A stretch of DNA of 39,628 nucleotides from Candidatus Sungiibacteriota bacterium (GTDB lineage: Bacteria; Patescibacteriota; Minisyncoccia; Sungbacterales; HO2-52-23): the NCBI GenBank assembly GCA_016196115.1, contig JACPYI010000022.1, forward strand, positions 1 to 39,628, read 5' to 3'. A program made the translations under genes and the position numbers. The notes under the pieces were generated by a model. The model was given only the letters and a program-made list of their open reading frames with translations, was not told the origin of the DNA and did no database searches. Below are positions 35,052-39,000 of the stretch, in pieces. The stretch's first letter is position 1. Every line of letters starts with the position of its first letter.

Positions 35052-35330
35052 GGTAATACCAAAGATCATGAAAAGAGATTTTGATTGATGGAGCCCAAAA
35101 GCAAAACCGCCCCGTATACAGAGCGGCTTCGCGGTGCATAACCCACCCGACAGATTACCTCCGAACATCACCAGCGGGCTTGGTACGCGGGTATATTTTA
35201 TCCCGGCATGGTCGGGACTCGGCGTCGATCCTTTGAGCACAGTACCATACCACCCAAAGAATCCGAGCTCTGCCCCCGGTTCGGCCAGAAACAAGAGCTT
35301 GTACGAAAAAGCACCACCTACATATGTATC

Positions 35331-35410
35331 ACAAACAAAAAAACCCTACTCTCCCTGCTCCTGATCGCGCTGGTGATCGCGGGGGTTTTCGGCGCGGGGC
35401 AGGAGGTGTT
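35331..35410 (+). repeat. Leader-module copy A (hydrophobic leader coding)
   Basis: CTCTCCCTGCTCCTGATCGCGCTGGTGATCGCGGGGGTTTTCGG... = LLSLLLIALVIAGVFGAG; ~80 bp similar to copies B and C. Confidence 0.85.
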
Positions 35411-35428
35411 ATCATATATGAGAAAAAC

Positions 35429-35989
35429 ATGACGCAAAAAACGCTCATTCTCAAAGGAGAGGCTGTCGTCTACATTGACTGGGCGAATGTTCACGGCTGG
35501 GAGGGATCACTCAAGTGCAAGATAGATATTGCTCACCTTTTTGCCTATTTGAAAACTTATCCGCAGACGCAGGATATACGGCTTTATTTTGGGAAAGATA
35601 TCCATCCGAAATCCGTAGCATTTCTCCAGCGCGCGCAAGAAATCGGATACACAGTCACCAGTAAAGACGTAAAATATATTCTTGAAGCGGAGATTAGCGG
35701 CCGGAAAGTATATCGCCGCAAATGCGACTTTGATATGGAAATCTGTATTGACGTACACGAGGCGCTGGCTGAAAACATCCGTGCCTTCGTTTTCTTTACC
35801 GGAGATGGCGATTTTGCTCCGTTGTATAAGAAGCTGATCCACTTACATAAACAGGTGATTGTAATCTATTCACCGGGTCATCTTGGCAGGGAGATTTGGG
35901 ATATAAAGAAGGGCGTGTTTAAGATTCAACTCAAGAATCTATTCGATAGAGAAAAATCGTCCCCCCGATTGCTCGAGGGGCGTGATTAG
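35429..35989 (+). CDS. NYN-domain (LabA/DUF88-like) putative ribonuclease
   Basis: AVVYIDWANVHGWEG, CDFDMEICIDVHEAL, AFVFFTGDGDFAPLYKKL. Start overlaps leader-A ORF stop (ATGA). Confidence 0.85.
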   Translation: MTQKTLILKGEAVVYIDWANVHGWEGSLKCKIDIAHLFAYLKTYPQTQDIRLYFGKDIHPKSVAFLQRAQEIGYTVTSKDVKYILEAEISGRKVYRRKCDFDMEICIDVHEALAENIRAFVFFTGDGDFAPLYKKLIHLHKQVIVIYSPGHLGREIWDIKKGVFKIQLKNLFDREKSSPRLLEGRD

Positions 35990-36105
35990 TCACCAGTGTA
36001 GCAAATTGAAAAAGTATGTCAAGACCTCTGATCAGACATTTATCCCTCACTATTCTTAAACGTACCACCATACAAATGGGTGTGGAACCCAAAAGAATAG
36101 TGTGG

Positions 36106-36212
36106 GACAAAAAAATCATCCTCTCCCTGCTCCTAATCGCCCGCCTGCGCCAAGGCTTCGGTGGACAAGCACTGGTCATTGCCGGAGTTTTTGGCACGGG
36201 GCATGGGGTGTT
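36106..36212 (+). repeat. Leader-module copy B with 30-bp in-frame insertion
   Basis: KKIILSLLLIA-RLRQGFGGQA-LVIAGVFGTGHGVF; insertion CCGCCTGCGCCAAGGCTTCGGTGGACAAGC (36141-36170). Confidence 0.85.
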
Positions 36213-36247
36213 TTGGGCGGAGCGGCGAGTTAGTGTAACATAAGATT

Positions 36248-36640
36248 ATGGAAAAAGCTTTTGACGCGTGGAATACGGAAAAGAAGATGATTCATCAACA
36301 AGAGTTGCCGCCATTTTGCTATCCACGCGAAGTATGGTGGTGTGCGCTTGGAGTAAATGTCGGCGATGAGCAGGATGGAACCGGCAAAAACTTTGACAGA
36401 CCCATTGTTGTCGTGCGCGGATTTAATGAACGTATCTTTTTGGGCATCGCGCTTACCGGCAAAAAGAAAGTGGGGGATTATTACTTTTATCTGGGGAAAA
36501 TCGCTGACAGAGACGCATCTGCTGTCCTCTCTCAAATGCGGCTCATTGACTCGAAACGGCTGGTCAAGAAGATAGCCGTGCTCGATAAAATCACGTTTGA
36601 AAACTTACAAGAAGCTCTTAAAAAAATGCTCTTTGGATAA
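36248..36640 (+). CDS. PemK/MazF-family toxin-like protein
   Basis: PREVWWCALGVNVGDEQDGTGKNFDRPIVVVRGFNERIFLGIALTGKKKVGDYYFYLG...SAVLSQMRLIDSKRL matches the PemK/MazF pattern. Confidence 0.75.
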   Translation: MEKAFDAWNTEKKMIHQQELPPFCYPREVWWCALGVNVGDEQDGTGKNFDRPIVVVRGFNERIFLGIALTGKKKVGDYYFYLGKIADRDASAVLSQMRLIDSKRLVKKIAVLDKITFENLQEALKKMLFG

Positions 36641-36720
36641 TGTAAACTAATTTGCCCCCGCTTGCGCGGGGGCGAGGCCGAAGCCCTTTGTACTCCCATC
36701 ATACCACCCTCCCAAAACAC

Positions 36721-39000
36721 ATGTCAACCCCCCAGACCAAACACAAAAAAATCATCCTCTCCCTGCTCCTGATCGCGCTGGTCATCGCCGGGGTTTTGGG
36801 GCTGGGGCATGGAGTGTTTGCCGCACCAGATCCGCCAGCAGTACAACCGCCCACGACGGGACTTTCAATTCCACCAAACTCATCTTCGTCGATTCTTGGT
36901 GCAATTCTCTGGATTCTTTTGGCCATTCGAACCGTCCTCGCATGGCTCCTATCGTATGCTGGTACTGCTTTAGACGCAATGTTTGTAGCAAATGCCGAGC
37001 TTGTACCTTCTGGCAATTCAACTGTACAAACTGGATGGATTATATTGCGTGACCTCGTAAATGGAATGTTTATTTTAATCGTCCTCTGGATTGCACTTAC
37101 TATTATCCTCGGTATTGAACAATATGGCGGAAAAAAATTACTCGTAAAGGTGTTAGCAGTCGCAATTCTTATTAACTTCAGTTTAGCAATTGTTACTGCA
37201 ATCTTTGCGTTTTCCAATCAGGTTGCGCTCGTTTTTGCAAATAAAATCAGTGGCGGACCGGAAAAAAACGTCGCTGCACTCATTATCAATACAACAAAAG
37301 TATACAGTATTACCAATCAACTCGACGCAGAGGCGCGTGCTAAACTTGAACAAGCAAGAAAGGCATATATATGGTCTGGAAGTAGTTGTGCTTGGGGGGA
37401 TATATGGTGTGCTACCAAGAATATCGGTTCAGCCGCCGTCACCGCTGCAGGATCTGCTTTCAGCACGGTGGTAGGAGCCGAGAAGGCGAATTTTGATCAG
37501 GTAGTTGGTGCCGCCATTGGTATTATCTTTCTCTTGATTATAACATCGGCATTTGTCTATACAGCCGTTGCTCTTGGTATACGCTATGTTGCGGTAATAC
37601 TTGTCTCAATCTTTGCTCCTATCGCTTGTCTTGCACTTGTTTTACCACTTGCATCCGCAAAAAAAGCGTGGGATCAGTGGTCAGAAGCGGTTTTCAAATG
37701 GGCGTTCTTTGCCCCGGCGTTTTATTTCTTACTGTATCTGACGCTTCTTATGGCGGTAGCATTTGATAAGCAACTCAGTCAGGGATCACAGGGAACAACA
37801 GATATTAAAATAGATACGCCACGCATTTTGGCTCTTATGGTAGTTTTGATTATGCTCCATTTCACGGCAAAGTTTGCAAAAGACACATCTGGAAAAGCGG
37901 GTACAATTGTTATGGATACCCTCAAAAAAGGTGCGGGGTTGGCGGTGGGGGTTACGGCTGGGGTGGCGACCGGCGGGACGCTGATGGCGGCGCGTGGGTT
38001 GGCGCGTGGGATGGTGAAGCCGGGGACAAGGCGTGAAAAGTTTACGCGAGGACTGGCCCGATACGCGCCAGGCGGAAGAGCTATTCAACGGGCAGGTGTT
38101 CGATCATTGGAGCAGCAGAAGCAGGATATTGAGGATCGGAAGAAAAACTATGGAAGCTACTCCAACGATCAGATACAAGCTGATTTCCGCGGAACCAATA
38201 TTGATTACACCAGAGAAAATGCTGCCAGATTGGCCATGCTTGCCGAACGCAAGGATGGGTTTAAGGGCATGAACGAGGGCGAGATGAAGCGCGTACAGGC
38301 AGTTCTTTCGCATTACAATATGGGCAGTACGCTTGCCAAGACAAACCCAACCCTTGCAGATGAGAACTCGCTCTCTACCAAGGGACGGCAAGACCTAAAG
38401 GATAACGCCGGAAAGAATGCGATAAATCATAATAATGCCCTGGCGGCAGATCCAATCCGCTACACCGCAGAGAATATGCTATCCGGCGACATAGAAAAGG
38501 TAAACACCAGTGAGATCAAGGAAATGACGACGGACAGTGATAAGGCGAAAGAGGCAAAAGCAAAAGTGCGCGAGGGCTTTGCGCGCAATACCGCGTTTGG
38601 CACGAATCAACTCCGCGATCTTGCAGTCAAAGATATTGAGGCAGCCCAGCAACAGGTTAATCACATGAATAGCACCTATGTAGCACTCAATGCGGAGTTG
38701 GCTACCGAGATGGCAAAAGTCGAGGACCAGAGAGATCAGGCAATGATTGCGCGCACCAATCGCCGCATTGCACAGATAAAGGGAATCGCGGCATATGTCA
38801 ATAATAATCCGGGCGGCAGAATATTAGGACTTACATTAGAAACAGAAATGGCAGATGCCGCGGAACAAGAGCGCCAGCGAGGGCGCAGAGGAGGAAGAGC
38901 GGGTAATCCACAACCTCCAACACCAACTCCACCAACTACTCCCACGCCTACACCCCCCCCCGACAACGCCGTAAACCCTGCGGCGCAATGGACTCGTTAA
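36721..39000 (+). CDS. VirB6/TrbL-like multi-TM protein (putative T4SS/pilus locus)
   Basis: Start MSTPQTKHKKIILSLLLIALVIAGVLGLGHGVFAAPD; TM core GWIILRDLVNGMFILIVLWIALTIILGIEQYGGKKLLVKVLAVAILINFSLAIV; long charged cytoplasmic tail. Confidence 0.72.
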   Translation: MSTPQTKHKKIILSLLLIALVIAGVLGLGHGVFAAPDPPAVQPPTTGLSIPPNSSSSILGAILWILLAIRTVLAWLLSYAGTALDAMFVANAELVPSGNSTVQTGWIILRDLVNGMFILIVLWIALTIILGIEQYGGKKLLVKVLAVAILINFSLAIVTAIFAFSNQVALVFANKISGGPEKNVAALIINTTKVYSITNQLDAEARAKLEQARKAYIWSGSSCAWGDIWCATKNIGSAAVTAAGSAFSTVVGAEKANFDQVVGAAIGIIFLLIITSAFVYTAVALGIRYVAVILVSIFAPIACLALVLPLASAKKAWDQWSEAVFKWAFFAPAFYFLLYLTLLMAVAFDKQLSQGSQGTTDIKIDTPRILALMVVLIMLHFTAKFAKDTSGKAGTIVMDTLKKGAGLAVGVTAGVATGGTLMAARGLARGMVKPGTRREKFTRGLARYAPGGRAIQRAGVRSLEQQKQDIEDRKKNYGSYSNDQIQADFRGTNIDYTRENAARLAMLAERKDGFKGMNEGEMKRVQAVLSHYNMGSTLAKTNPTLADENSLSTKGRQDLKDNAGKNAINHNNALAADPIRYTAENMLSGDIEKVNTSEIKEMTTDSDKAKEAKAKVREGFARNTAFGTNQLRDLAVKDIEAAQQQVNHMNSTYVALNAELATEMAKVEDQRDQAMIARTNRRIAQIKGIAAYVNNNPGGRILGLTLETEMADAAEQERQRGRRGGRAGNPQPPTPTPPTTPTPTPPPDNAVNPAAQWTR
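36741..36820 (+). repeat. Leader-module copy C (functional signal peptide of VirB6-like gene)
   Basis: CACAAAAAAATCATCCTCTCCCTGCTCCTGATCGCGCTGGTCATCGCCGGGGTTTTGGGGCTGGGGCATGGAGTGTT. Confidence 0.85.

Follow-up and report, generated by a model that had tools for sequence, protein, structure and literature searches.

Convergent structured RNAs face PemK-like and NYN nuclease genes in Patescibacteria and may form toxin-antitoxin-like modules with them

Introduction

In type I toxin-antitoxin (TA) systems of the txpA/ratA class the toxins are small hydrophobic peptides. Type III systems rely on RNAs made up of tandem repeats that lie upstream of the toxin gene and are co-transcribed with it from one promoter, with a terminator between the two, and their toxins are related in fold to MazF/Kid (PMC5086642). 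In the AbiF/RCd22 pair of Clostridioides difficile a structured non-coding RNA neutralises a toxic protein by direct binding, both in cis and in trans (PMC12373285). Here we describe an NYN-domain nuclease gene and a divergent PemK/MazF-like RNase gene, located next to a virB6-like gene on a contig of Candidatus Sungiibacteriota bacterium (GCA_016196115.1, JACPYI010000022.1; the whole stretch of 39,628 nt is referred to as the window). Each of the two is faced by a predicted convergent gene for a small structured RNA.

The reduced genomes of Patescibacteria often contain MazF/PemK and NYN genes that stand alone and seem to be toxins without antidotes. A convergent RNA beside nearly all of them would be the counterpart that seemed absent.

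Results

Two nuclease genes are faced by predicted convergent RNAs

The two nucleases, named NYN and PemK/MazF-like by an earlier sequence-only reading of the window, were recognised as such by Pfam profiles (Table 1) and are 130-190 aa long. The profile of the PemK-like family matches B. subtilis MazF/EndoA (E 7e-12), the closest solved relatives. On the minus strand behind the PemK stop codon a predicted near-consensus promoter is followed by two hairpins, and behind the NYN stop codon another such promoter is followed by a GC-rich hairpin with a U-run (boxes and spacers in Table 1). The virB6 start (ATGTCAA) is complementary to the -35 box of the PemK-module RNA promoter. When 217 open reading frames (ORFs) of the window and its relatives were scanned for convergent promoters, only four scored at least 10 out of 12, and three of these four were the PemK and NYN genes of the window and the PemK gene of the sister species. 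The sequence-only reading had offered three explanations of the locus (coupled leader peptides, a recombination cassette, or paralogue remnants carrying toxins), none of which foresaw a minus-strand promoter and structured RNA facing each nuclease gene. Rfam covariance models gave nothing in the region at E up to 10, and in 12 related loci they gave tRNAs, two chance matches below the cut-off and nothing else. PADLOC reported nothing beyond one weak generic NYN match.

The locus further contains three copies (A, B and C) of a short leader sequence, and an N-terminal PemK remnant lies upstream of leader A. The sequence from 35068 onwards looks like a PemK promoter and gene start interrupted by a stop codon, with a score reached in none of 500 shuffles, so that a third module, now decayed, probably once preceded leader A. 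The order at the locus is remnant module, leader A, NYN module, leader B, PemK module and leader C-virB6.

The RNA accompanies divergent PemK-like genes across Patescibacteria

We searched 286 genomes of the class with PF02452 and compared the flanks of the genes that matched, about 140 in number and spread over 70 genomes. Canonical MazF/PemK genes score over 62 bits and encode about 110-125 aa; the divergent family, which includes the window gene, has about 130 aa. An RNA unit was called automatically if a convergent promoter with a score of at least 9 was combined with two hairpins. By this rule the unit is present in 78 of the 100 divergent PemK-like loci, compared to none of 31 canonical MazF genes (Fisher p 4e-16) and none of 284 ordinary ORFs. 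About nine rule-negative divergent loci show the unit by eye, and the other rule-negative ones are mostly short genes of the MazF type that have an ORF upstream. At 30 of 32 canonical MazF/PemK loci the gene is preceded by an overlapping or adjacent ORF, an operonic antitoxin. Among the 82 RNA-positive members 68 have no operonic ORF, and the ORFs at the others look neighbouring or spurious. Canonical MazF genes were ruled out as members of the RNA-paired family because they have operonic antitoxins and no RNA.

A covariance model of the PemK-type RNA (R1) yielded 37 matches in the class genomes, 32 of which are located beside PF02452 genes. Four of the remaining five lie beside PemK remnants and one is an orphan. 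An RNA beside a decayed toxin gene is what would be expected as the leftover of an antitoxin. In a forward test across the phylum R1 matched eight genomes outside the class, and in all eight a convergent PemK-like gene was found alongside. These counts demonstrate the pairing, its specificity and its conservation; there is strong support both for the RNA genes and for their association with the nucleases. A viral profile scan gave three matches, two of them with the RNA, and a single-sequence viral scan gave none.

The orphan RNA (L239, G001:C15) is located behind a gene that by eye looks GIY-YIG nuclease-like, and no PemK remnant was found there. Tandem convergent RNAs beside one PemK-like gene were noticed at L261 (G515:C58), with a separate promoter for each RNA, and at G111:C6:21298-21443.

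Both hairpins of the PemK-type RNA covary

The distance between the -10 box and hairpin 1 is about 11–13 nt and is fixed in 70 of 77 RNAs. Hairpin 1 comprises 3–5 pairs, with UUCG as the commonest loop, and is followed by a short linker and hairpin 2, which is often GNRA-looped. In most loci the end of the RNA coincides with the toxin stop codon or is close to it, and the hairpins are located outside the coding region. A MAFFT alignment of all RNAs is not structure-aware, therefore a gap-free seed was used for R1. In the model-fitted alignment 98.7% of the cells are paired, and changes on both sides occur in 9 of 10 pairs. Doubly changed cells number 82, compared to 23 in shuffles and 4–11 with slid partners; the latter control matters because a model-fitted alignment leans towards its model. 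Both stems thus covary strongly, which demonstrates the structure of the RNA. The ungapped, promoter-anchored analysis gave a weak and noisy covariation signal.

The tetranucleotide UACA is found before hairpin 1 in 38 of 78 RNAs, compared to 3 in shuffles. MazF/EndoA of B. subtilis cleaves at U^ACAU. Because of this motif, and because MazF/EndoA are the closest solved relatives, it is an attractive idea that the RNA might act as a substrate mimic of the toxin's cleavage site.

NYN genes have convergent RNAs of their own

Seven close intact NYN homologues from distant lineages of Patescibacteria share with the window gene a promoter followed by AAUCACGCCC, a hairpin and a U-run. Model R2, representing this RNA, gave four strong matches, all of them beside NYN genes. 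Two weak matches (L273, L274) lacked an NYN match or a convincing promoter and were taken as chance. Among more distant NYN genes 14 of 19 have a convergent promoter with a score of at least 10, followed by RNAs of other kinds. Since NYN genes also have their own convergent RNAs, the RNase-RNA principle spans two unrelated RNase folds.

Two further families of convergent RNAs were seen beside distant NYN genes, the CUGAUAAUGUCUUU.. and ACUAAAC..CC..GG types (L084, L089, L092, L097 and L083, L093, L094).

Homologues on plasmids and prophages of Campylobacterota

The window PemK-like protein also matches genes on plasmids of Nitratiruptor, Campylobacter (pVir) and Helicobacter as well as on Campylobacter prophages of the CJIE4 type. 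These Campylobacterota homologues are annotated as type II toxins. A convergent structured RNA follows the PemK-like gene in 7 of 7 Campylobacterota-type homologues examined. The pVir RNA is present in nearly identical form on the small C. jejuni plasmids pCJ419 (L285) and pCJ3.7K (L286), where the PemK gene is absent at that place and the RNA stands alone. Judging from this arrangement, the RNA-only copies are possibly antidotes to the toxin. A small RNA of pVir, CJpv2, has been detected by northern blot; it is antisense to pVir0033, with the right neighbour facing (PMC10470494, PMC5447181). Its recorded position would fit the layout of the predicted pVir convergent RNA. Transcriptome maps of C. 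jejuni 81-176 pVir exist (PMC3656092). A search of the open-access literature for a pairing of RNases with convergent RNAs found no prior description. The members in Campylobacter, Helicobacter and Nitratiruptor make the modules testable in cultured bacteria.

The leader repeat at the virB6 locus

The sequence-only reading had described the three leader copies, and we find them at the places it gave and strongly similar at the DNA level: A and C share 84% identity over 76 nt, and the first 34 nt of B are 97% identical to C. Copy C is indeed the start of a VirB6-like gene, comprising the first ~33 codons of ORF 36721-39000, and A and B match that segment. Relatives of the VirB6-like protein are present in 81 of 93 genomes searched; a Pfam search of the protein itself matched no family. 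The frame junctions are also as reported: the frame of A runs to 35432 and overlaps the start codon of NYN (ATG at 35429), and that of B stops at 36243, which leaves 4 nt to the start codon of PemK (ATG at 36248).

The hydrophobic frame of leader A has no start codon nearby; the closest ATG, at 35324, belongs to the frame of NYN. In leader B the hydrophobic core is split by a ~30-nt insert encoding RLRQGFGGQA. The insert is a small dispersed palindromic repeat, CCGCCT-CGCCAAGGCTTCGGCGG, of which more copies occur both here and in related genomes (G000, G001, G003, G005, G006 and G010). G001, the only other genome of the same genus examined, has kept the gene order PemK-virB6. Here the leader piece before the orthologous PemK gene consists of the 3' half only, without a start, just after the preceding stop codon. 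A, B and C are the sole copies in the 842-kb genome, and in all other genomes searched outside the genus the leader is absent, bar short matches of 18-28 nt. Unlike the nuclease-RNA pairing, which is widespread, the leader thus occurs in this genus alone, and it is ruled out as a general cassette.

Between G000 and G001 21 of 24 leader codons are identical, in comparison to 124 of 302 in the rest of virB6 (Fisher p 8e-6). The leader DNA is thus abnormally conserved (window 36721-36820 versus L042:5626-5725) though the VirB6 proteins share 45% identity, and the non-coding half-leader of G001 is kept as well. An imperfect 30-nt inverted repeat was noticed at 36039-36111, between the NYN-module RNA promoter and leader B.

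Table 1. Positions of the modules, the leader copies and virB6 in the window.
Feature	Position	Strand	Remarks
Probable decayed PemK start (MKRDFD*W) and promoter-like upstream sequence	35068..35100	+	E 0.017; score 33, 0/500 shuffles
Possible decayed convergent RNA of the PemK remnant (weak)	35193..35255	-	score reached by 19/500 shuffles
Leader copy A	35335..35410	+	putative duplicated virB6 5' end, own start codon gone
NYN-domain nuclease gene, toxin-like half of module 1	35429..35989	+	PF01936 E 1.5e-14
NYN-module convergent small RNA (AAUCACGCCCCUCGAGCAAUCGGGGGGACGAUUUUU)	35950..35988	-	model R2 match
NYN-module RNA promoter	35995..36022	-	TTGACA-16-TACACT
Leader copy B	36107..36213	+	putative duplicated virB6 5' end with ~30-nt dispersed repeat inside (36141-36170, approximate)
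Divergent PemK/MazF-like RNase gene, toxin-like half of module 2	36248..36640	+	PF02452 PemK_toxin E 3.9e-10
PemK-module convergent two-hairpin small RNA	36651..36695	-	model R1 match; predicted 5' end ~36691
PemK-module RNA promoter	36698..36727	-	TTGACA-18-TATGAT
VirB6/TrbL-like type IV secretion gene	36721..39000	+	named by context and the sequence-only reading
Leader copy C	36743..36818	+	signal-peptide-like start of the VirB6-like gene

Discussion

We consider it probable that each nuclease and its convergent RNA of ~40-60 nt form a TA-like module and that two such modules, together with a decayed third, were inserted at virB6. A strong promoter of the sigma70 type, belonging to the RNA itself, would drive its transcription on the opposite strand up to the stop codon of the nuclease gene. 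The RNA would fold into a compact hairpin structure and inhibit its RNase by binding to it, much as type III antitoxins do. Owing to the strength of the promoter the RNA would be present in excess, and the RNase would be released once the RNA is lost. Insertion of the PemK, NYN and decayed modules at the virB6 start would have duplicated fragments of the virB6 5' end. By analogy, antitoxin action through direct binding is the most likely mode. The wider proposal, to which we give about even chances, is an undescribed TA class in which unrelated RNases (MazF/PemK-like and NYN) are each controlled through binding by a cognate structured RNA, which is convergent to the gene and has a transcript of its own; such a class would be widespread among Patescibacteria and would extend to Campylobacterota plasmids and prophages, the RNA-only copies on small plasmids serving as antidotes. 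If this is true, an RNA-antitoxin architecture outside the present types would apply one logic to two unrelated RNase folds, and the covariance models could be used for annotating such modules.

Several points weigh against the modules as proposed. Transcription of the RNAs in Patescibacteria, binding to the protein and neutralisation of toxicity are what we infer from sequence comparison. Some RNAs lack a clear U-run terminator, and the RNA trace of the remnant module upstream of leader A is marginal, as 19 of 500 shuffles reach its score. Furthermore the RNA might be a cis-antisense regulator of type I kind that does not bind the protein but acts on the nuclease mRNA, either through base pairing at the 3' end or through transcriptional interference. 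This would be consistent with an RNA that in most loci stops at the nuclease stop codon or close to it and is by nature complementary to the end of the mRNA; other toxins, too, are under convergent antisense RNAs (txpA/ratA). However, pairing in cis does not need stems whose sequence and geometry are maintained by compensatory changes in different families, most loci have the hairpins beyond the coding region, and the pVir RNA is almost unchanged on small plasmids without the toxin gene. We therefore regard antisense action through the 3' end of the toxin mRNA as unlikely. It is very improbable that the hairpins are mere bidirectional terminators of the nuclease genes with incidental promoter matches. 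Many second hairpins are terminator-like, but the combination of promoter and two hairpins is missing from all 284 ordinary ORFs, the spacing between -10 box and hairpin 1 is kept in 70 of 77 cases, and a model of the RNA alone locates the toxin in new genomes.

The leader copies are best read as virB6 5' ends that were presumably duplicated while the modules were inserted there, and not as functional peptides. Of the three earlier explanations, remnants of duplicated paralogues carrying toxins fits best, also in view of the PemK remnant upstream of A, although it did not include the minus-strand promoter and RNA. The frame overlap before NYN and the 4-nt gap before PemK had suggested small hydrophobic leader peptides translationally coupled to the RNase genes. 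This explanation fails because the frames are broken: A has lost its start, the core of B is interrupted and the G001 copy lacks the 5' half. Together with the absence outside the genus of anything longer than the short matches, we regard it as scarcely credible. A further point against the proposed history is that the conservation of the leader DNA between two species seems to exceed what simple debris explains. The leader DNA might instead act in cis or in recombination, and be moved or retained together with the modules. Its conserved codons, the retained non-coding half-leader in G001 and its copies as direct repeats flanking the PemK module in both species would point to this. We find this doubtful: only two genomes carry the leader, no other cargo is known, and the sequence could alternatively be upstream DNA of the RNA promoter or a product of gene conversion. 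A constraint on the RNA-promoter side, gene conversion or another DNA element are all possible reasons for the conservation.

Comparison with known toxin-antitoxin systems

With type II MazEF/PemIK the modules share a toxin that is a homologue of MazF/PemK. In contrast to them most members have no operonic protein antitoxin, and the frame upstream of the window PemK gene is a broken leader; in the same genomes canonical MazF has the operonic antitoxin and lacks the RNA. The convergent small RNA overlapping the toxin 3' end resembles type I systems of the txpA/ratA class, but here the partners are RNases of 130-190 aa, the RNA is conserved as a structure and the leader peptides are broken. As in AbiF/RCd22, a structured RNA is proposed to neutralise a toxic protein by binding; however, the protein family of AbiF differs, and its RNA is located upstream and co-transcribed.

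The greatest likeness in function would be to type III (ToxIN, CptIN, TenpIN), in which an RNase of the MazF/Kid fold group is combined with a short structured RNA gene and no protein antitoxin. By sequence profile the PemK-like toxin belongs to the MazF/Kid-like fold that characterises type III, and one member of its family weakly matches the CptIN toxin model (E 0.0065), whereas NYN has a different fold. The RNA described here is convergent, located downstream, mostly single-copy and equipped with its own promoter, and upstream of the window PemK gene a leader fragment is found in place of RNA repeats. Type III RNA antitoxins fold as pseudoknots; the structural analysis of the RNA described here covered hairpins, two of which covary. 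Because the arrangement of the RNA differs, the modules are not a type III system by the features tested, yet they probably work in a similar way.
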